Position numbers and translations under genes: made by a program
Source of the DNA: Entophlyctis helioformis
Lineage: Eukaryota; Chytridiomycota; Chytridiomycetes; Chytridiales; Chytriomycetaceae
Length of the DNA: 64,000 nt
Assembly (NCBI GenBank): GCA_025526915.1
Contig: JAHLKH010000033.1
Span: 119,514-183,513 of the forward strand
Direction of reading: 5' to 3'
The notes under the pieces: model-generated
The model's input: only the letters and a program-made list of their open reading frames with translations
The model's database searches: none
What the model was told of the DNA's origin: nothing
Shown here: positions 2,321 to 33,613 of the stretch, one piece after another
Layout: each line of letters starts with the position of its first letter
Position numbering within the stretch: the first letter of the stretch is position 1

Positions 2321-3803
2321 TCACACAAGGCTCGAGTAGCAGATGCGTGCCGGGACGGCAGGAACGCCGGTCGGCGCCAATCGGACAACCAGCGGCTCCT
2401 TGAACACATCGCGTGCAGCCCACGGCACCTGCTTGACAAGCGCCAGCTTTGCTTTAATGCGATCCTCGAGCGACGGCGAAGCAACAGCATACGGATCGTC
2501 TCCATCAGGAAACAGCCGTCTGCCTTTCCCATGGTGCGTCACATGCGGCGGCGTTGTCTGTGGCTCAGCGGGCAGCATGCGGCGGTGTTGGCTGATGAAC
2601 CGCAACACATGGCTGCTCATGAGAGTGTCCACGTCGTCCAGGATCCTCTCATACAGTCCGGATTTCTGCTCTCTCGCTCATGTCAGTCGAGCCCACATTC
2701 TCAACACGGCCAATGCGGACGTGCCACTCACCCAGAACGATTGCTTGGACGACCGGCTGGCTTTGGCCATGCGGCTCAGATCGACAAGCATGCCGCCCAC
2801 ATCTGCCAGATGGCTTTCAAGATCGCCGTATGACTTGAGTGCGCTGCAGCGTGGCATGGCCACAATGTCCCGTATCAGGTCTTCAGTGTCAACCGAGTCG
2901 CGCGGATCTGACGTCAACTTGATGCCCAGCACATGTCTCTGCGCACGGGCATGGACAGCCGTTCAGCAGCAGTCGTCGCATATGCTGGTTTGAGCCATTC
3001 CCGCTTACAAGATTGGCGTCGACGACGGCTCGCTGCAACAGCCGAGGCAGCTGCCATGTGCGGCGTCCAGTTCTGATCTCGATGCGCTCGACGGACGGCT
3101 CCTTTGTCTTGGACTCGACAAGAAACTCTATAGTCAAATGCGGCAAGCCCTGTGACACATTGTCAGGCGAGTCTGTTGGCCGAACCCTCGCCAATACAAG
3201 CAGACACCCTCTTACGCCAAAGAACAGCGCCTCGTGCCGCCGCGATGTCTGTTTTGCTCGCGCGTGTCAGCAGTGATATGGCGCGTGGCAGTGCGTGCCG
3301 TTATGGCACTGATACAACATGGTTTTCTTACACGCCGCATGCCGCGAATCTGGAGCAGTGGCACTGCATGTACAACAGTCTTGCCGCCTGGAGCAGTGAC
3401 AAGCAGCGCATCTTCAGACACGCAGACGAGCCGCATGTCCTCTGCACTCGATAGCGGGTCAGTGCGATCGCATGCGATGCCGACACGAGATGCACTCACC
3501 AAGAAGCGCATCAAGCAGCGGAATGCCGCACTCGCCGACATACAGAATGGCGTCGTCTGTGCTGCCGAGCAGGTCTGCAGTCGATGGCGATGGCGATGGC
3601 GATTGCGCGGCGTGGCTGTCCAGCTGAGCCTTCCGCAGAGTCTTGCGCAGGTGCGGCAGGATCTGCGTCTCTGCGTGGGCTCTGTCCAGCCTGGCTCCCT
3701 CAACGATCATCGGCGAGTGTGTTTGAAACGCCAACAAATCTCTGTGCTTTCCGCAACACACAAAAATGTAAGAGGGATGCGGCCGCTCGTCACTCACCGC
3801 CAA
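2321..3803 (-). CDS. Unrecognised protein, about 379 aa, six exons
   Basis: Exons deduced from phase-consistent GT-AG junctions are 3803-3500, 3441-3332, 3248-3216, 3149-3009, 2938-2732 and 2665-2321, giving 380 codons including TGA. All five introns close in phase, so the model is probably right, but I cannot name the family. The protein starts MAVSDERPHPSYIFVCCGKH, has a Ser/Pro linker near residue 70, then beta-rich stretches (DALLVTAPGGKTVVHAVPLL, PHLTIEFLVESKTKEPSVER) and a helical C-terminal third. There is no signal peptide or TM segment. It lies head to head with adenosine kinase, with about 96 bp between the start codons. A conserved adaptor-like eukaryotic protein is possible, but that is a guess. 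Confidence 0.6.
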
Positions 3804-7087: not shown

Positions 7088-7654
7088 ATGCCCCCTAAGA
7101 AGCGCACGCGAGCAGCCTCCAAGCAGGACGACGCAGACGGCTCGCCTGGCGCCGTTGCGCTGGCCGTCGACGTGCCCGCTGCCGACGCAGAGCCCGCCAA
7201 GCGTCCACGCCGTGCTGCTGCCGCTGCCGCTGCGTCTTCGGCAAGCGCCAAGCCAAAGGCCGAAGTCAAGCCCAAGGCCGAAGTCAAGCCCAAGGCCGAA
7301 GTCAAGCAGGAAGCAGCACCAACACCAGCACCAGCACCAACAGCCGCAGCGGACGGACTGCACATCCGCATCGAGCACTGCACCAGCTGATCCACGTACA
7401 AGTCGCAGGGGTCGCGCCTGGCCGCTTCACTGCGGTCGGCGTTCCCCGCTGCGACGGTCGTCGTCAACCCAACCAAGCCGCGCTCCAAGTCGTTTGACAT
7501 CCACGTCCGCACGGGCGGGGATGCAGGCGCCGATGGCGGTGGTGCCGAGGTCACCGTGTGGGCCGGCTCCGCCAAGGGCCCGCCGCGCAAGGACAAGTTT
7601 GTCGACCACGCCGTGGCCGTCGAGCTGGTCGCGGCGCAGCTCAAGGCGGCGTGA
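7088..7654 (+). CDS. SELENOH: Selenoprotein H (in-frame TGA at 7388-7390 read as selenocysteine)
   Basis: Thioredoxin-like Rdx-family selenoprotein H, a nuclear/nucleolar redox protein in animals. Starting at ATG 7088 the frame gives a basic N-terminus (MPPKKRTRAASK), an Ala-rich region, three KPKAEV repeats, then the redox loop IRIEHCTS followed by TGA (7388-7390). The same frame stays open for 87 more codons to TGA at 7652-7654, for 188 residues counting Sec. The post-TGA part carries the family hallmarks VVVNPTKPRSKSFDIHV and GPPRKDKF, so the TGA sits exactly where animal SELENOH has Sec in Cys-x-x-Sec. No splice donor or acceptor could remove the TGA without losing the motif. The upstream in-frame ATG at 7010 gives a Trp/Leu-rich leader unlike the family and is not preferred. 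A candidate SECIS follows in the 3' UTR. Confidence 0.9.
7388..7390 (+). other. Selenocysteine codon (TGA)
   Basis: Codon 101 of the 7088 frame. It follows TGC ACC AGC, forming Cys-Thr-Ser-Sec, and strong SELENOH homology continues in the same frame on both sides. Confidence 0.88.
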
Positions 7655-7726
7655 TCGCCGACGGTGCGTGTCGGCGTGTCGGCGTGGCGAGTTGGGCGGT
7701 GTGTGCGAGTGCGACGGACCCGCTGC

Positions 7727-7783
7727 ATGAATCGGATGGCTGCGAAAGCTTATCAGACGCTTCGTCTGCGCGCCTCTGATGAT
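7727..7783 (+). promoter_or_regulatory. Candidate type II SECIS element in SELENOH 3' UTR
   Basis: Hand-folded hairpin 73 nt after the stop codon. The core is ATGA (7727-7730) facing GAT (7781-7783), allowing A-G, G-A and U-U non-canonical pairs. Helix II pairs 7731-7736 with 7775-7780, 7738-7740 with 7772-7774, and 7742-7744 with 7769-7771 (12 bp with bulged U at 7737 and 7741). AAA (7745-7747) lies at the apical bulge. An extra mini-stem CAGACG/CGTCTG (7754-7759 with 7763-7768, loop 7760-7762) fits the type II form. The quartet-to-AA distance is 14 nt, slightly long for the usual range. Helix I is not clear. Strong by pattern but not proven. Confidence 0.65.
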
Positions 7784-7942
7784 ACTACAAGCTCTGTGCC
7801 GTGTGTTGACGCGCGGCCGAGTCAGACTGGGATCTGCGTTCTTGCATGCACTGCACCACCATCGCCACTGAATAAACTCGTAAAAGCATCTCGCTGACTC
7901 GCTGGCTCGCTGGCTGGTTTATTATAAGCGTGGTGGGCACAG

Positions 7943-8956
7943 TCAAAAGGCAGAGGTGGACGTGCCTGCGAGCGTGTTGGCTGCAAGGATGTCGGTGTTG
8001 CTGCCAAACGCGCCGTTTGCACCACCGCCACTTGCACCGAGCGAGGCGGTGGCGGCGACCGTCTTGACAGCGACTGTCTTGGCAGGCCCGACACGGTTGC
8101 CCAGCGACATGCCAGTCGACGCATCGTCCTCGTCGCCCATGGCGCTCTGGTCAATCAGCGAGTCGCGCATGAGATTCGAGAACACGTCCGTGAGCATGAT
8201 GCGAAAGGCAAACAGCGTCGAGTTGTACACCCAGTACGTGTCGCGGCCCGTCGCCATCACCGAGACCATGGTCACGGAGAGCGCAATCATCCCAAACAGC
8301 GTCACGATGCTCAAGTAAAAGAACTGCGGCTTGACGAGCGCGAGCCGCTGGCCAATAGACGTCCTTGACAGCGATCGGTTGAGAATGTACATGCGCGCAA
8401 TGAGGAGCAGGTCCAGCCCGGCAGCCATCAGATCGCTGGCAGCATAGATCGACACGGCGCGGTTGTACACGGTCGAGTAAAACGCGACTGGCCCGCCGGG
8501 TAAGGTGGCGTACAGCGCATAGCCAAACGCCGCACCCATGACGCACTGCATGGCGACCGTCAGGTACAGCACGGGCTGGCGATGCGGTCGCGGCCAGATC
8601 GCCATCAGCCGATGGAACGTGAACCAGAGCACGAGGCTGCGTGCGACAATGTCGCAGATCCAGCCGAGCAGCGCAAACGTAAAGGCGAGCGGGAATCGGC
8701 CGCCGTACACGGACACGAGGCAGAGGAAGAGCGTGGAGAAGAACCAGACGAGTGCGGCGATCCAGGGCATTTTGGCAATGCGGGCATTGGTATAGAGATG
8801 GCGGGACGAGAGGGTGATGGCGACAAACCCAACGAAACTGACGAGAGTGGATGTGATAGAGAGCTGTACAAACAGCCAGTTGTCGAATGGAACAAGGCCA
8901 GAGACGCCTGGGACCATTGGTACGGTGCTGTCGCTGCTGTCGCTGCTGTTGCTCAT
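7943..8956 (-). CDS. Seven-transmembrane protein, 337 aa
   Basis: A single-exon frame with seven clear hydrophobic helices between about residues 25 and 265, a short Ser/Asn-rich extracellular-type N-terminus (MSNSSDSSDS) and a Gly/Ala/Ser-rich C-terminal tail. Helix 3 carries ICDIVARSLVLWFTFHRL and helix 7 WVYNSTLFAFRIMLTDVF. Topology suggests a G-protein-coupled-receptor-like or orphan fungal membrane protein, but no diagnostic DRY or NPxxY motif is obvious, so no family is assigned. It converges on SELENOH: its stop lies about 160 bp beyond the candidate SECIS. Confidence 0.75.
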   Translation of the reverse strand: MSNSSDSSDSTVPMVPGVSGLVPFDNWLFVQLSITSTLVSFVGFVAITLSSRHLYTNARIAKMPWIAALVWFFSTLFLCLVSVYGGRFPLAFTFALLGWICDIVARSLVLWFTFHRLMAIWPRPHRQPVLYLTVAMQCVMGAAFGYALYATLPGGPVAFYSTVYNRAVSIYAASDLMAAGLDLLLIARMYILNRSLSRTSIGQRLALVKPQFFYLSIVTLFGMIALSVTMVSVMATGRDTYWVYNSTLFAFRIMLTDVFSNLMRDSLIDQSAMGDEDDASTGMSLGNRVGPAKTVAVKTVAATASLGASGGGANGAFGSNTDILAANTLAGTSTSAF

Positions 8957-22288: not shown

Positions 22289-23454
22289 TCAGATCGAGTG
22301 GATGAGCAGCTCCTCGGCCGACACGCCCGTCACCAGCTTGGTGGACGACGACGACCACGACAAGGGAGCGGGCGGCTGCTGCTGGTTCTGCTGCTGCTGG
22401 GGAGTCGGGATGGGGATCGGCAGGGGCAGGCTGGGTGCCGTGGGCGAGGCGGGCGGCGAGGCGACCGACGCATCCGACAGCACCGAGTCGCGGCGCTTGT
22501 CGACGCTGTAAGGGGGCGGGGCACGGCAGCAGGCGTGAGTAAGAGAGTGAGCGAGCGAGTGAGCGAGCGAGCAGTGCCTTTTACAGCCAGTCAAAGTGGT
22601 GGTTTTACAGCCCGTCGCGCCAGGGGCCGTGGCCGTGGCCGTGACCGTGGCCGTGGCTGCTCCTTCCCCGAGAGAGGGAAGGGAACAGGCGCACGAGGGA
22701 ACAAGCACGCCAAAGGCGCATCCCTTCCCTCGATCCACGCACACACACGACCAGGCACACGTCCACTCACGACCACGCACACACAGCCACCCCCTTGCCC
22801 GCACGGTGCCATTTGCGCCACAATCGTCGTTTCATGCATCGCACAACGCATCACCACATTGGAGCACCACATTGCTTCGCATCGCAGCGCATCGGAGCGC
22901 ATCGGAGCGCTTCGCATCGCACAAACTCACTTGGCAAACGAGTCCTGGTGCGACAGCAGGCTGCCGTGCGTCGGCGACCGCGAGAGCAGCCCGATGGGCC
23001 CGATGGGTCCGATAGGCGCCTTGGCTGCCATGGCCGCCGTCTGCAGGCTGCCGAGCCGCCCGACGTTGGGCATCGGCACGGGGCCCTGCGCACCAGACGG
23101 GCCGAGCTGGCCACCGAGCTGGCTGAGCTGCCCGCCCAACTGGCTGAGCTGCCCGCCGAGCTGCCCGCCGCCGGCCTCGCTCGACCGACGCACCAGCCGC
23201 ATCTTGAGCGCCGTCTGGCCGTCCTGCTTGACCAGCTGGATGATGCTGTTGTTGTTGGCGTTGTTGGCGTTGTTGTTGGCGTTGTTGCCGTTACTGCCAC
23301 TGGTGGTGGTGCCGGCGTCGGGCCCAAACGGGATCGCTGTAAACGACGACCGGCGGGTCGGCCCGCCGTTGTTGGTCCACAGGGCGCCCGCGGTGGCGGC
23401 GGTCGCGGCGGTGGCGGCGGCGGCGGCTGCAATCACAAATGTGTGTCCGGCCAT
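22289..23454 (-). CDS. Unrecognised protein, 246 aa, two exons
   Basis: Exons are 23454-22931 and 22505-22289, joined in phase 2 across a 425-bp intron. The protein begins MAGHTFVIAAAAAATAATAA, a hydrophobic Ala-rich stretch that could be a signal or membrane anchor. An Asn-rich segment (NGNNANNNANNANNNS) follows, then a core with SIIQLVKQDGQTALKMRLV, Gly/Gln repeats (GGQLSQLGGQLSQL) and a C-terminal Ser/Pro/Gln tail ending STKLVTGVSAEELLIHSI. I recognise no family. The conserved-looking C-terminus and clean splice sites support a real gene of unknown function. Confidence 0.5.
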
Positions 23455-23822
23455 GAGTGAGTTGAGTTGAGTGTTGGTTGAGTGTTGGTTGAGTGGAGTT
23501 GAGAGTTGTCTGAGAGCGAGCAGCCGGTTTATGAAGCAGAAGCAGAAGCAGCCGGAAAGCTTGCTCGCTCGCGTGTCAAGTGCTTGGCTCGGCGCGGCTT
23601 GGCTCGGCTCGGCTCGGCTGCTGGCGCGTGTGCCGACCACGCGACTTGCATAAATCCACCGCTGCGATGGCTGCGCCACTTGTGCACGCCAGGGCCACTC
23701 CACAATGCCCCCTCGTCGACTCCCACTCGCCCACACTCCCACTCGCCCACATCCACGCTCTCACGCACCACCCTCAAGGCATCTGCTTTGAAAAAACAAT
23801 GTATTTCGACGCCGCGTGCGGC

Positions 23823-27725: not shown

Positions 27726-27932
27726 TCCGGATGCAGCGCAAACTTTGTTTCTCCGACACGGCGGCGTTTCAACGATCGATGCCGGTACCAAGAGTGCAGC
27801 GAGGCAGGACAGCGATACAAGACAGCAAGAGCGACGCACAGCAGCGACGCACGGCGAACTGGCAAAAGGAGTCGATCCGACAGCCATCACCATCGGTTTG
27901 CCAAAAGGTAGTGTAAGCAACAAAAAGGAAAA

Positions 27933-28004
27933 ATCCCAGCCGGGACTCGAACCCGGAATCGCCTGCTTAGGAGGCAGGCGCCTTATCCATTAGGCCACGG
28001 GGAC
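27933..28004 (-). tRNA. tRNA-Arg (anticodon CCT)
   Basis: A 72-nt cloverleaf on the minus strand. The acceptor stem starts GTCCCCG. The D-arm carries GGCCTAATGG. The anticodon stem CCTGC/GCAGG encloses loop CTCCTAA with anticodon CCT. The T-arm is CCGGG-TTCGAGT-CCCGG. No intron. The A and B boxes (TGGCCTAATGG and GGTTCGAGTCC) are intact. It decodes AGG. It lies 12 bp from the left end of the retrotransposon, which sits at the upstream (transcription start) side of this gene. Confidence 0.96.
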
Positions 28005-28016
28005 TCCACTTTAAGC

Positions 28017-28351: not shown

Positions 28352-29728
28352 ATGACAGTGTTCAGTAGCGAAGGAAACCCGCAGGACGCCGCACAGGGCA
28401 ATCAGGCCGGTGCTGGCAGAGGAGCCGCCGCCGCTCAAGGAGGAGCCGCTGGCGTGGACAACGAGATCGCATCCACCACGAGGGTCGATGCCGCGACTGT
28501 TTCAGTCAACAGTCCAGTGGAGACGCAACTTGCGTTTATTGTGAACGCGCTGCTGGGTGCCTCGCAAGCCCAGAACGCCAGCGCCCAGTCCGTCGCGGCC
28601 ACCGCATCGATGGTCGCCGGAGCCACGCCCTCGGCGTTTCTGCAAGCGGTCGCCGCTGCCGCTTGGCGTGCCACGAGGCTGCCCGACGCCGCGCCAGCTA
28701 GTATCATCGCCGCGGCCGCCGAGTTTGGAGCCACCATGTATCAGCCGCCGGTCGCGCCGCTGCCGGTCGCCCCGCCACAAGCCGGTCCGTCGACAGCCGC
28801 CCCGGGCCGTCCAGCGGACGACGTGAGCCGCGAGGTCCGACGCAAGTTCACGCTCGGGACTTTCGCCGGTGTGGCAAACCAACTCGAGGCGGCCACAGAC
28901 TTCCAACGACGCCTGGAGCAGTTCTTCAAGTTGTACGCGCATGCGAGCGAGGACGAGCTCGAGGCGCTTCTGCACCCGGCGCTCATTGGCGCCGCGGGCC
29001 AGTGGCTGGTGCGCCACGTCAGCCGCTTTGGTGGCGTCCGCCGCGCGGAGTTTCTCGCCGATTTCCGCGCCACGTTCCTGCCGGCTGCCGCGCTCAGCCG
29101 CATCAAGGACGTCCTCGTCAAAGTGTCGCAGGGCAACGCCACTGGCACCACCTACGTTTCGCGCTTCGAGTCCCTCGCAAGCGGCCTCGACATCGCCGCC
29201 AACGACGAGTTCCTCACCGATACGATGGTGCGCGGCCTCTCGGAGTCCTACGCCATCGAGGTGCGTCGTGAGCTGCGCCGTGCCGCAATGTCGTTCCCAG
29301 AGCTCTGCGAGTTCGTCCGCGGTCTGGACGACATCTTCCGCGGCGGCCCGCTCCCTTCGGTGGCGTCTCGAGGCGCGACTGGCGCCACCCCGATGGAAGG
29401 CGTCGTGTTCCACCAAGCCAACCCTGTGGCGTCGTCATCGTCATCGTCATCGTCATTGTCATCGTTTATGCCAGCCAGCCGACCACGTCACCGCCAGTCG
29501 GCTGAGGATCGCAACACCTGTTTCACCTGCCATGGCGTGGGCCAGCACCGTCCACACTGCCGGTCGACGTTCCGTTTCCCAAACCGTCGCCCTGCGCAGT
29601 TGCACTCGGTGAACATGGCCGATCTGGTCGCAGCCCTGCGCGGGCTTGGCGTTGTGCCTGCTGCCCCGACCCCTGCCGCAGGCCCCAACACCGCCGGCCC
29701 GTCTGCCGAGGGCCCCGCCCAGCACTGA
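28352..29728 (+). CDS. gag: Retrotransposon Gag polyprotein
   Basis: A 458-residue frame starting 20 nt after the LTR. The N-terminal 120 residues are Ala-rich and disordered. A retrotransposon capsid-like region follows (about 165-330; LTDTMVRGLSESYAIEVRRE). A Ser run precedes a zinc-knuckle-like CFTCHGVGQHRPHC, spaced CX2CX5HX3C instead of the usual CX2CX4HX4C. It ends at TGA 29726-29728 followed by CGG. The downstream frame is open and in the same phase into pol, so Gag is probably both a free product and the N-terminus of a Gag-P read-through protein. Confidence 0.92.
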   Translation: MTVFSSEGNPQDAAQGNQAGAGRGAAAAQGGAAGVDNEIASTTRVDAATVSVNSPVETQLAFIVNALLGASQAQNASAQSVAATASMVAGATPSAFLQAVAAAAWRATRLPDAAPASIIAAAAEFGATMYQPPVAPLPVAPPQAGPSTAAPGRPADDVSREVRRKFTLGTFAGVANQLEAATDFQRRLEQFFKLYAHASEDELEALLHPALIGAAGQWLVRHVSRFGGVRRAEFLADFRATFLPAAALSRIKDVLVKVSQGNATGTTYVSRFESLASGLDIAANDEFLTDTMVRGLSESYAIEVRRELRRAAMSFPELCEFVRGLDDIFRGGPLPSVASRGATGATPMEGVVFHQANPVASSSSSSSSLSSFMPASRPRHRQSAEDRNTCFTCHGVGQHRPHCRSTFRFPNRRPAQLHSVNMADLVAALRGLGVVPAAPTPAAGPNTAGPSAEGPAQH

Positions 29729-29824
29729 CGGTGCCGGCGTGGTGATGAGCGTGTATGGAATGAAAGCAGTCTTCCTACACAACCATCGCCACGTCCGGTA
29801 CCTCCATCTAGCAGCCCTCCCGCC

Positions 29825-32800
29825 ATGAAGCCTGCCCCGCCGGTGCTGCCTGCACCACCCGTGCCTGCTGCGGAGCCTGTGACGCCTGCTCCGCCCGCCC
29901 CGCCTGCTCCGCCAATGCCCATGCCCAAGCGCTCATTCGCCGATGTGGTGGCGGGCAGATCTGGCGCGTCGTTTTTCAAGCTGGATTTCGCGCCATCGGC
30001 TCGCCCGCTCCGTCGATTCTCGGTGGCCATCGGATCTGTATCTGCCACAGCATTGGGCGACTCAGGCGCTGGTGCCAACTTCGTCGGTCTGCGTCTGTAC
30101 CAGCAGCTGGTCGCCAAGGGTCTGGTCGAGACACACCAGCTGCCACGCGGCGTACCGCTACGCCTCGGCGACGGCTCGGACGACATCACGCTGTCCAAGG
30201 CGTGCGTGTTTGAGCTGCAGACGCCCGACGGTCAGTCGCTGGGTCGGCTGGATGCATTCGTGGCACCCATCGACGAGCACCACGACTTGGTGCTGGGCCT
30301 GCCGTGGCTCGAGGCGGTCCGGGCCGAGTGGCGGTTCGGGCGTGACGGGCAACTGTGTGCCAACACGCCGCGTGGACCAGTCGCCATGGCTGACGCCAAG
30401 GCCAGCTCGCCGCCTGCGTCGCTCGCCGCCAGCGCCGTTGAACTGATGTCGTATGATCAGTTCAAGCGGGCCAACAAGCGCGGCGAGATCGAGTGGGCTG
30501 TCAGCCTGTTCGAGCTCGCCGCCACTCCGGAGGAGGATGGATCGTTCCCCGAGTGGGTCGAGACCTTGCGCAGGGAGTTCCCTGGCGTCCTCCCGCCCGC
30601 TGGTAGCAAGCTCAAAATCTCTAAAGAGCTTGCACAGCTGGGTGAGCATGGCATGCACCGGATTGAGCTGTTGGACAGCACGCCGGTCAAGCGGCAGGCG
30701 TACCGCATGAGCCCGCGAGAGCTCGATGAGGTGCGCAAGCAGCTGATCGCACTGCTGGAGGCTGGCGTCATCCGCCCCAGTAGCAGCCCATGGTCGCTGC
30801 CGATCCTCTTTGTCAAAAAGAAGGACGGCACTCTGCGGATGTGCGTGGATTATCGCGCACTGAACCAGCAGACCAAAGCCGATGCGACGGGTTTGCCGCG
30901 CATTGATGACAACCTGGATCGGTTGTATGGCATGCGGCGCTTTGCGGTGCTGGACATGCAGTCTGGCTACCAGCAGGTGCCCATGGCTGAAGACTCAGTC
31001 CAATACACTGCATTCAACACGCGGTATGGACAGTTTGAGTACTTGGCTATGCCATTTGGGCTGAGAAATGCGCCGGCCACCTACCAGCGCATGATGAATC
31101 GTGTGCTGGAGGGTTTGGTCGATAGCATTTGCGTTGTGTATCTCGATGACATCCTTGTGTATGCGGCTGATGACCAACAGCTGCAGGAGCGCGTCCGGGC
31201 GGTGTTCGAGCGGCTGGCCAAGTACGGACTGGTCGCCAATGCCAAGAAGTGCCGGTTCGGCCTCGACGAGGTCGAATACTGCGGCCACCTGGTCTCAGCC
31301 GCGGGCATTCGGCCGGATCCGCGCAAGCTGGAGGCGATTGCCAGCTGGCCAGTGCCTAAGGAGTTGGTACAGTTGCAGTCGTTCATGGGGCTTTGCAACT
31401 ATTACCGCCGCTTTGTCCGCGACTACGGCCGCATCGCCATCCCGCTCAACCGCCTTACACGCAAGGACGTGCCGTTCGCCATGGGCCCGGACGAGATGGC
31501 GGCGTTCCAGGCGCTCAAGGACGCGCTCGTCTCGGCGCCCGTCTGCGCCGCGCCAGACTTCAGCAAGCCAATGCACGTATGGACGGATGCCAGCCAGGAC
31601 GCCGTCGGCGGCGTGCTCTCGCAGGATCACGGCAAGGGCCACCAGCCGATCGCGTTCTTGTCGCACAAGCTGTCGCCGGCGGAACGCAACTACTCGGCGA
31701 CCGAGCGCGAGGCGATGGCTGTGATTCACGCGCTGCGCACTTGGCGCTGTTATGTGGATGGCGTCCGCACGATTGTGCACACGGATCACCAGCCGCTGAC
31801 GTGGCTGAAGGGGTTGGATCGACCTGGGCCACGGCAGTGGGGTTGGCAGCTGGAGTTTGAGCACTACGGGCCGTCGCTGGAGTACACGCCTGGCAAGTGG
31901 CAGCCTGCAGACGCGCCGTCCCGCCGCACCGACCTGCCCGAGCCCGCGGTTCCGATCATCGATGCTGACCCGTATGGCATTCGCGCTGACGCTGTTCAGC
32001 TGCACCCACTGGAAGCCGCACCAGCCGCACCGCCGCAGCTGGATCCAGAGCGCGATTGGCCGATGCACGCGCTCCAGTTCAAGCTCAACAACACGGTGCC
32101 GCCTGGTCTGTCGCCGCGCCACACTGCTCTGATCTCGCAGCAGAACCGCCTGTTTGTGCTGCGCGACGACACTCTGCAGCGACGGGTCATGGTCAACGGC
32201 AAGGAGTTTGTGGTGCCATTCATTGTGTCTACGGAGCGCGACGCCATCATGGACAAGTTCCACCGCACGCTCGGCCACATGGGAGCCGCCTCGCTGTATG
32301 GCGTGCTGCAGACGCGCTACTGGTGGCCCAACATGGAGGCTGAGCTGATCGAGTTTGTGCGCCGCTGCTCGGTCTGTCAGCTGCACGAGACGCCAGCGCC
32401 GTCGGTTCGCAACCCGCTGCATCCGCTCGAGCCCGCCGCGCTGCCCTTTGAGAGGTGGGGGGTGGATATTGTGCAGGATCTGCCTGCGACGGCCGACGGC
32501 AACACGCAGCTGTTCACCGCGATCGACTACGCCACACGCTGGGTGGTGGCCAAGGCGTATCCCAACCGCGACGCCACGACCGCCGCCAAGTTCATCTACG
32601 AGGAGATCCTGTGCCAGTTTGGTGCACCACGCGAGATTATCACGGATCGCGCGAACGTGTTCACCAACGACGGTCTGCGCGAGTATCTCAAGCTGCAAGC
32701 GACCAACCACCTGCCGTCGACGCCGTACCATCCGCGCACGAATGGAGCCGTCGAGCGCATGCACCGGTCGCTGAACGCCATTCTCACCAAGCTGTGCGCC

Positions 32801-33613
32801 GGATCGCCCGAGCGCTGGGACAAGTACGTGCCACAGGCTCTGCTCGCGCTGCGCACGCGGCGCCACGAGGTCACGGGCTACTCGCCGTTCTACTTGCTGT
32901 TTGGAGTCGAGCCGCGCCTACTCGGAGATGACAGCCTGCCGCATGAGTACGATCCCAAGGACTGGCAGGACATGGCCGCCTGGACCGCCCGCGGTCTCGA
33001 TGAGGTCGGTCTTGCACGCCAGGCCGCGTACGTGCGATCGCAGGCTCAGGCCAAACGCATGGAGGAGCGCTACAACACGACGCACACGGTGCAAGCAGAT
33101 CGGTTTGTCGTGGGCGAGTACGTCAAGCAGAAGCATCACGACAAGACCAAGTTTGAGCTCTCGTGGACCGGGCCATACATTGTGCAGGAGGTCGGGCCCA
33201 ACGACACGTACCGATTGATGCGCGCCAACGGATCCATGCTCGAGAATCTTGTCAATGGCGACCACCTCGCACCATACTACAGCCCGCAGACAGACGTGTT
33301 CTATGGAGGAGCGTCCAATCAGCCGCTCACGCCGGTTCCAGCAGCAGCGGCCGCTCCGCCACGCATCGCGGCACCAGCACCTGCCGTTACTGGCATTCAG
33401 CGCGACACGCGCGGCGTTCCCATCGTGCAACGCGCTCGCCCGGCCTTGTCGTCTGCGGACGTGACGTCCTCTAGGAAGGGAGGAATGTTACGGGCTCAGC
33501 CGCCTAGCTCGGTGGATCGCCTCCAGGGGGATGCGCCTCTCGATGTCTCAGGATTGGACATGAGACTCGGCCATTCGGCCGAGGGGCGCAACCCACAGTT
33601 GGGGCGCGCCTAG
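29825..33613 (+). CDS. pol: Retrotransposon Pol polyprotein (protease, RT, RNase H, integrase)
   Basis: A 1262-residue frame from the first ATG at 29825. The open frame actually starts at 29729, directly after the gag TGA and in the gag frame. Domains in order: Pro-rich linker; aspartic protease (LGDSGAGANFVGL); reverse transcriptase from about residue 270 with VDYRALNQQT, the LDMQSGYQQV strand and the catalytic YLDDILVYA; RNase H (WTDASQDAVGG, TDHQPLTWL); integrase with the zinc-binding HRTLGHMG...CSVCQLHE, then D, D and E residues in VDIVQD, ITDRANVF and HPRTNGAVERMH; GPY/F-like WTGPYIVQEV. The last 43 codons lie inside the 3' LTR. Translation by UGA readthrough is inferred. Confidence 0.95.
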   Translation: MKPAPPVLPAPPVPAAEPVTPAPPAPPAPPMPMPKRSFADVVAGRSGASFFKLDFAPSARPLRRFSVAIGSVSATALGDSGAGANFVGLRLYQQLVAKGLVETHQLPRGVPLRLGDGSDDITLSKACVFELQTPDGQSLGRLDAFVAPIDEHHDLVLGLPWLEAVRAEWRFGRDGQLCANTPRGPVAMADAKASSPPASLAASAVELMSYDQFKRANKRGEIEWAVSLFELAATPEEDGSFPEWVETLRREFPGVLPPAGSKLKISKELAQLGEHGMHRIELLDSTPVKRQAYRMSPRELDEVRKQLIALLEAGVIRPSSSPWSLPILFVKKKDGTLRMCVDYRALNQQTKADATGLPRIDDNLDRLYGMRRFAVLDMQSGYQQVPMAEDSVQYTAFNTRYGQFEYLAMPFGLRNAPATYQRMMNRVLEGLVDSICVVYLDDILVYAADDQQLQERVRAVFERLAKYGLVANAKKCRFGLDEVEYCGHLVSAAGIRPDPRKLEAIASWPVPKELVQLQSFMGLCNYYRRFVRDYGRIAIPLNRLTRKDVPFAMGPDEMAAFQALKDALVSAPVCAAPDFSKPMHVWTDASQDAVGGVLSQDHGKGHQPIAFLSHKLSPAERNYSATEREAMAVIHALRTWRCYVDGVRTIVHTDHQPLTWLKGLDRPGPRQWGWQLEFEHYGPSLEYTPGKWQPADAPSRRTDLPEPAVPIIDADPYGIRADAVQLHPLEAAPAAPPQLDPERDWPMHALQFKLNNTVPPGLSPRHTALISQQNRLFVLRDDTLQRRVMVNGKEFVVPFIVSTERDAIMDKFHRTLGHMGAASLYGVLQTRYWWPNMEAELIEFVRRCSVCQLHETPAPSVRNPLHPLEPAALPFERWGVDIVQDLPATADGNTQLFTAIDYATRWVVAKAYPNRDATTAAKFIYEEILCQFGAPREIITDRANVFTNDGLREYLKLQATNHLPSTPYHPRTNGAVERMHRSLNAILTKLCAGSPERWDKYVPQALLALRTRRHEVTGYSPFYLLFGVEPRLLGDDSLPHEYDPKDWQDMAAWTARGLDEVGLARQAAYVRSQAQAKRMEERYNTTHTVQADRFVVGEYVKQKHHDKTKFELSWTGPYIVQEVGPNDTYRLMRANGSMLENLVNGDHLAPYYSPQTDVFYGGASNQPLTPVPAAAAAPPRIAAPAPAVTGIQRDTRGVPIVQRARPALSSADVTSSRKGGMLRAQPPSSVDRLQGDAPLDVSGLDMRLGHSAEGRNPQLGRA
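33473..33485 (+). other. Polypurine tract
   Basis: AGGAAGGGAGGAA lies immediately before the 3' LTR and is the expected plus-strand priming site. It overlaps the end of pol. Confidence 0.85.

Follow-up and report, generated by a model that had tools for sequence, protein, structure and literature searches.

A gene in the window (the whole stretch of 64,000 nucleotides that was analysed) very probably specifies a genuine UGA-encoded selenoprotein H (SELENOH) of a selenocysteine-using fungus. By translation and homology, positions 7088-7654 encode SELENOH with a TGA at the family's selenocysteine (Sec) position, and UGA most likely encodes Sec here given the homology on both flanks, a SECIS-like element, and the genes found in the assembly for tRNA-Sec, SecS and an SPS2 with its own TGA and SECIS. 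The features of the locus are collected in Table 1.

Table 1 Features of the SELENOH locus, in window coordinates.
Feature	Position	Strand	Details	Basis
SELENOH coding sequence	7088..7654	+	188 residues, Sec = residue 101, stop TGA 7652-7654	translation and homology
In-frame TGA, predicted to specify Sec within the CxxU motif (C-T-S-U)	7388..7390	+		translation, human SELENOH alignment
Low-complexity basic N-terminal extension	7088..7363	+	PPKKRTRAA, PAKRPRR, KPKAEV repeats	nuclear-localisation-like by eye
Predicted thioredoxin-like Rdx/SELENOH domain across the TGA	7364..7651	+		profiles and human SELENOH alignment
Type II eukaryotic SECIS-like element	7727..7783	+	quartet formed by ATGAA and TGAT; 11-bp helix II, two U bulged out; AAAGCUUAU unpaired; mini-hairpin of 6 bp	
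Probable 3'UTR	7655..7895	+	end ~7895 guessed	AATAAA 7871-7876 spotted by eye

Translation of the 189 codons in 7088-7654 gave TGA only twice, as codon 101 and as the terminal codon 189, with the residues GLHIRIEHCTS-U-STYKSQGSRLAASLRSAFPAATVVVNPTKPRSKSFDIHV...GPPRKDKF around the internal one. Human SELENOH aligned on both flanks without a change of frame (39/91 identical, E 3e-20). The initial annotation, which had claimed a single in-frame TGA at the SELENOH Sec position (Cys-Thr-Ser-TGA) and 87 further homologous codons including VNPTKPRSKSF and GPPRKDKF, is borne out on both counts, and the two motifs lie in the same frame. In the protein, the CxxU redox motif follows the first beta strand, and TGA is the codon at its Sec position. 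Family profiles matched below their cut-offs, both for NCBIfam CXXU_selWTH (residues 93-181, E 3.4e-7, 30.5 bits against 34.2) and for Pfam Rdx (E 4.3e-4, 20.9 bits against 22.6). A single-sequence structure model had the order beta-alpha-beta-beta-alpha at low confidence (mean pLDDT 58), with no PDB fold match to this model at E <= 0.001, and a search of a plasmid collection gave no match and is not informative. CTSU, VNPTKPR and GPPRK motifs, one Sec and a basic N-terminus are common to the window protein and human SELENOH, while the former differs by a longer alanine/lysine-rich N-terminus and seven additional residues around the VTVWAG strand.

SELENOH was found at a single locus at E <= 0.001 across the whole assembly (29,569,594 bases in 482 contigs, the window lying on contig C33), a search that an intron-split copy could escape. 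G+C by codon position was 0.75/0.62/0.66 upstream of the TGA, where the low-complexity N-terminus is included, and 0.69/0.56/0.87 downstream; the third-position value in this genome's eEF2 was 0.82. One of the two other forward frames likewise stays open over the 261 bases that follow the TGA, so that the case for SELENOH rests on homology and openness proves little. The gene converges with a seven-transmembrane-looking gene (by eye) at 7943-8956 (-), with 288 bp between the stops (7655-7942); the protein of this neighbour had no Pfam match at E <= 0.01. Elsewhere in the window, adjacent long frames of 458 and 1262 aa at 28352-33613 (+) resemble, on inspection by eye, the gag and pol of a retrotransposon of Ty3/gypsy type, and a tRNA-Arg(CCT) gene lies at 27931-28005 (-), about 350 bp from them.

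The initial annotation made no mention of the SECIS-like element, which lies 72 nt past the stop and about 340 nt downstream of the UGA. An extra mini-hairpin of the kind seen here marks a type II SECIS. The AUGA, the GA quartet, the apical AA, a stable helix II and a 3'UTR position were all present in this element and in that of SPS2, described below. Available passages of one source list AUGA, a GA/GA quartet and an unpaired AA in the upper part as features of eukaryotic SECIS (PMC11227280). Relative to eukaryotic type II elements, our two share the 3'UTR position, the AUGA, the GA/GA quartet, the unpaired upper AA and the mini-hairpin, and differ in that both carry AAAGCUWAU.

The helix II energy of the SELENOH element, for helices of at least 10 bp, was matched in 3/2000 dinucleotide shuffles of the 300-nt 3'UTR. 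Across the window on both strands, one of 426 tiles of 300 nt held a site at or below −16 kcal/mol, and as the element lies inside one tile, this should be that tile. Among 152 SECIS-like candidates, drawn from both strands of the window and of seven other loci, the SELENOH element ranked second and the SPS2 element fifth by helix II energy, three candidates besides SELENOH having a lower energy than SPS2. The 296-nt SELENOH 3'UTR was more stable than its shuffles (z −4.14), while the 121-nt SECIS regions were not (SELENOH z 0.75, equalled by 155/200 shuffles; SPS2 z −0.58, equalled by 56/200). Helix I duplexes of the two elements, which contain bulges or mismatches, had energies of −11.9 and −12.2 kcal/mol. 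Rfam SECIS families had no match in the window at gathering scores, and none in 7655-8400 up to E 10, although such a match does not define a SECIS. The SELENOH element is predicted to bind SBP2 and direct Sec insertion.

SPS2 was located at C198:8554-9512 (TIGR00476, 126.8 bits summed over neighbouring matches, cut-off 125). It has an in-frame TGA in the context LKG-U-GC, which we take to be the Sec site of SPS2, and continues with KVPQ. Its 3' region reads ATGAC...AAAGCTAAT...mini-hairpin...TGAT, and the energy of this element was reached in 0/2000 shuffles. ATGA-N14-AAAGCTWAT is common to the SELENOH and SPS2 elements, and a looser pattern derived from the elements themselves, ATGAN{12,15}AAAGCTNAT, occurred at seven sites in the assembly against none for the reversed control. 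Those seven include SELENOH and SPS2; the folds at the other five were not SECIS-like by eye. Two other approaches to the shared element were set aside: a covariance model built on the SELENOH SECIS alone was too specific and missed the SPS2 element, and MAFFT misaligned the two sequences.

A gene for tRNA-Sec was found at C17:196127-196210(-), scoring 64 bits against a 47-bit cut-off and called tRNA-SeC(tca) with anticodon TCA by ARAGORN; two weaker matches, on C15 and C425, proved to be tRNA-Ser(TGA). SecS lies at C50:19676-20979 (Pfam SepSecS, E 3.1e-110; SecS chain of PDB 3hl2, E 1.3e-113). The assembly holds three of the elements by which the Sec trait is recognised, namely a UCA-anticodon tRNA-Sec, SecS and an SPS2 with a predicted Sec codon. 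Complete absence of the Sec machinery, which the initial annotation had set against its own reading, is not what we found: tRNA-Sec, SecS and SPS2(TGA) are there, with similar SECIS in both TGA genes. The contigs carrying SELENOH, tRNA-Sec, SecS and SPS2 measure 183, 214, 153 and 46 kb, and the stretches read from them have a G+C of 0.63, 0.65, 0.60 and 0.54. Window G+C is 0.609 overall and 0.54-0.69 in 2-kb steps, so that, as far as G+C goes, the four contigs fall about within the window range and nothing points to contamination.

The machinery that the initial annotation proposed to look for was recovered in part, as tRNA-Sec, SecS and SPS2 were found but no EFSec, SBP2 or PSTK was identified. 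NCBIfam selB gave 19 matches on 12 contigs across the whole assembly, all read by eye as GTPases other than EFSec. We take these to be mitochondrial IF2 (two copies on C282), eIF2-gamma (C89), Hbs1 (C63), eRF3 (C29), Snu114 (C92), EF1A (C11), a TypA-like protein (C65), mitochondrial EF-Tu (C237), GTPBP (C68 and C62), eEF2 (C25) and an EF-G-like protein (C232), of which eEF2 is the one checked against a database. The copies of the gene read as mitochondrial IF2 are inverted relative to each other, at 2558-3343 (+) and 22711-23496 (-) of their contig. Pfam euk_SelB_III had no matches in the assembly and none in control genomes either, and the best match to a human EFSec query was the gene read as eIF2-gamma. 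For PSTK, TIGR03575 had no matches in the assembly and a human PSTK query had none; the two PF08433 matches on C179 look by eye to belong to a single KTI12 gene. SBP2 gave no match with a single human L7Ae-domain stretch as query.

We know of no role for SecS and tRNA-Sec without Sec insertion, and for this reason we read the non-detection of EFSec, SBP2 and PSTK as assembly gaps or as divergence beyond the sensitivity of the searches. This is less comfortable for EFSec, given that the assembly yielded other members of its GTPase superfamily on 12 contigs, and EFSec is a real loose end, the one unexplained gap. It is very unlikely that this is a Sec-decoding fungus which has lost canonical EFSec, and perhaps SBP2 and PSTK too, but kept tRNA-Sec, SecS, SPS2 and SECIS-bearing mRNAs; Sec-tRNA would then be delivered by some other GTPase of translation or by an EFSec that has diverged strongly.

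If the locus works as a selenoprotein gene, the ribosome would translate SELENOH mRNA up to the UGA, where the 3'UTR SECIS hairpin would recruit a SECIS-binding protein and the Sec-specific elongation factor, which would bring Sec-tRNA(Sec) to the codon. SecS would make Sec on tRNA(Sec) with selenophosphate supplied by SPS2, itself a predicted selenoprotein. The product would be a CxxU thioredoxin-like oxidoreductase, probably nuclear. We infer that Sec is actually inserted, that EFSec, SBP2 and PSTK functions exist, and that the protein has a nuclear redox role. SELENOH is described as nucleolar in animals in the passages available from one paper (PMC10650576), and the window protein, with its lysine/arginine-rich N-terminus, is probably nuclear like its animal counterpart.

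A true codon of TGC or TGT, that is a Cys-SELENOH altered by sequencing or assembly error, would need one substitution to give the observed TGA. The initial annotation had held that an error in one base could not give rise to such a pattern; this fails, because such a substitution needs no frameshift. What disfavours a simple error is the SECIS and the Sec genes, not the shared frame of the two flanks: an error leaves the SECIS in the 3'UTR, the TGA of SPS2, tRNA-Sec and SecS unexplained, and we regard it as highly improbable. Even less credence goes to other ways of dealing with the TGA, be it generic readthrough, a variant of the nuclear code or removal of the codon within an intron; nothing specific speaks for any of them. 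The same gene terminates with TGA, which a simple reassignment of TGA as a sense codon would not allow, generic readthrough predicts neither SECIS nor SecS, and homology is continuous through the TGA on both sides, which leaves no room for an intron.

The undetected EFSec, SBP2 and PSTK, set beside EFSec-superfamily GTPases present on 12 contigs, would fit a recent loss of the trait, in which a descendant of a Sec user lacks EFSec, and perhaps SBP2 and PSTK, such that translation would now end at the TGA, leaving SELENOH as a decaying relic. However, no disabling change was seen in the parts read of SecS, SPS2, tRNA-Sec and both SECIS, and the SELENOH match spans nearly all of the 87 post-TGA codons, which have coding-like codon positions. 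Such a loss would by necessity be very recent, and we consider it unlikely compared with a working UGA-encoded SELENOH.

The search for further selenoproteins used a wider pattern, ATGAN{12,15}AAAGCN{23,38}TGAT, which occurred at 28 sites in the assembly against two for the reversed control; the excess beyond the two described SECIS may reflect composition. We scored 27 of the 28 by helix II energy and by an upstream frame broken by TGA, leaving out L059, whose letters are identical to those of L058. Within each of the contig pairs C298/C334 and C60/C359 the pattern-matched stretch is identical, suggesting duplicated or haplotype contigs. The frame test recovered SELENOH but not the Sec codon in SPS2, which is separated from the element by introns and too great a distance; other intron-bearing selenoprotein genes would therefore be missed as well. 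Helix II energies were −18.2 kcal/mol for SELENOH, −17.2 for L040, −16.3 for SPS2, −15.8 for L054 and −15.6 for L045. L040 overlaps an open frame of 352 codons and L054 one of 253, and neither has a helix that closes at the quartet, unlike the SELENOH and SPS2 SECIS. By eye, no further frame resembling a known selenoprotein lay upstream of the 27 scored sites, a survey that a SECIS with other apical letters would escape. Pfam Rdx found nothing in the assembly at E 0.001 and missed SELENOH itself, which makes this search uninformative on SELENOW/T. The selenoproteome may be very small, with SELENOH and SPS2 found in the families searched.

The affinity of the genome was assessed with eEF2, whose 694-residue frame scored 1168 bits to 7old, presumably a fungal entry, and 1132.6 bits to yeast eEF2, with a group at 1034 bits and below that includes 4v6w and 3j7p, which we take to be animal entries. 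The best scores, against structures taken as fungal, indicate a fungus or a close relative and support the earlier description of the source as an apparent fungus.

Two 2021 papers, in the parts available, still said that fungi encode no selenoproteins, one of them commenting on the 2019 report of fungal Sec use (PMC7988114, PMC8559351). According to the accessible text of two other sources, the Sec-using fungi reported by 2019 number nine and belong to Chytridiomycota, Zoopagomycota and Mucoromycota (PMC11378755); Harpellales account for seven (PMC10386755). This agrees with the earlier statement that Sec is known only from a few early-branching fungal groups. Nine sequenced Harpellales genomes have a G+C of 26-38% in the passages available (PMC5954228), and with 61% in the window our fungus is probably not a member of Harpellales. 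The remaining two Sec users, Gonapodya and Bifiguratus, have genomes that differ in size from the 29.6 Mb of this assembly. A new or rarely sampled Sec-using fungus, as had been proposed, is likely from a G+C outside the Harpellales range. Among the literature matches listed (titles and abstract openings, with few subscription papers) we recognised no further Sec-using fungus.

A fungal selenoprotein and Sec trait are of a kind already known, and what is added is probably a further lineage: a fungus rich in G+C, probably not of the Harpellales, in which SELENOH, SPS2, SecS and tRNA-Sec occur along with a pair of similar SECIS. This fits repeated loss of an ancestral Sec trait. A selenoproteome of possibly two members, in which SPS2 makes selenophosphate, would offer a setting for the question of why SELENOH has been retained. 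The likeness to Harpellales SELENOH is by description, not by sequence, in that available text gives SelenoH as common to Harpellales fungi (PMC12611240). The fungi of Mariotti et al. 2019 are mostly Harpellales, a group whose sequenced members have a low G+C, whereas the genome analysed here has 61% G+C in the window and EFSec, SBP2 and PSTK went undetected in it; with the Sec trait described there, in nine species of three early-branching groups, it shares SELENOH together with tRNA-Sec, SecS and SPS2, as far as the accessible parts of the sources go (PMC11378755, PMC10386755, PMC12611240).
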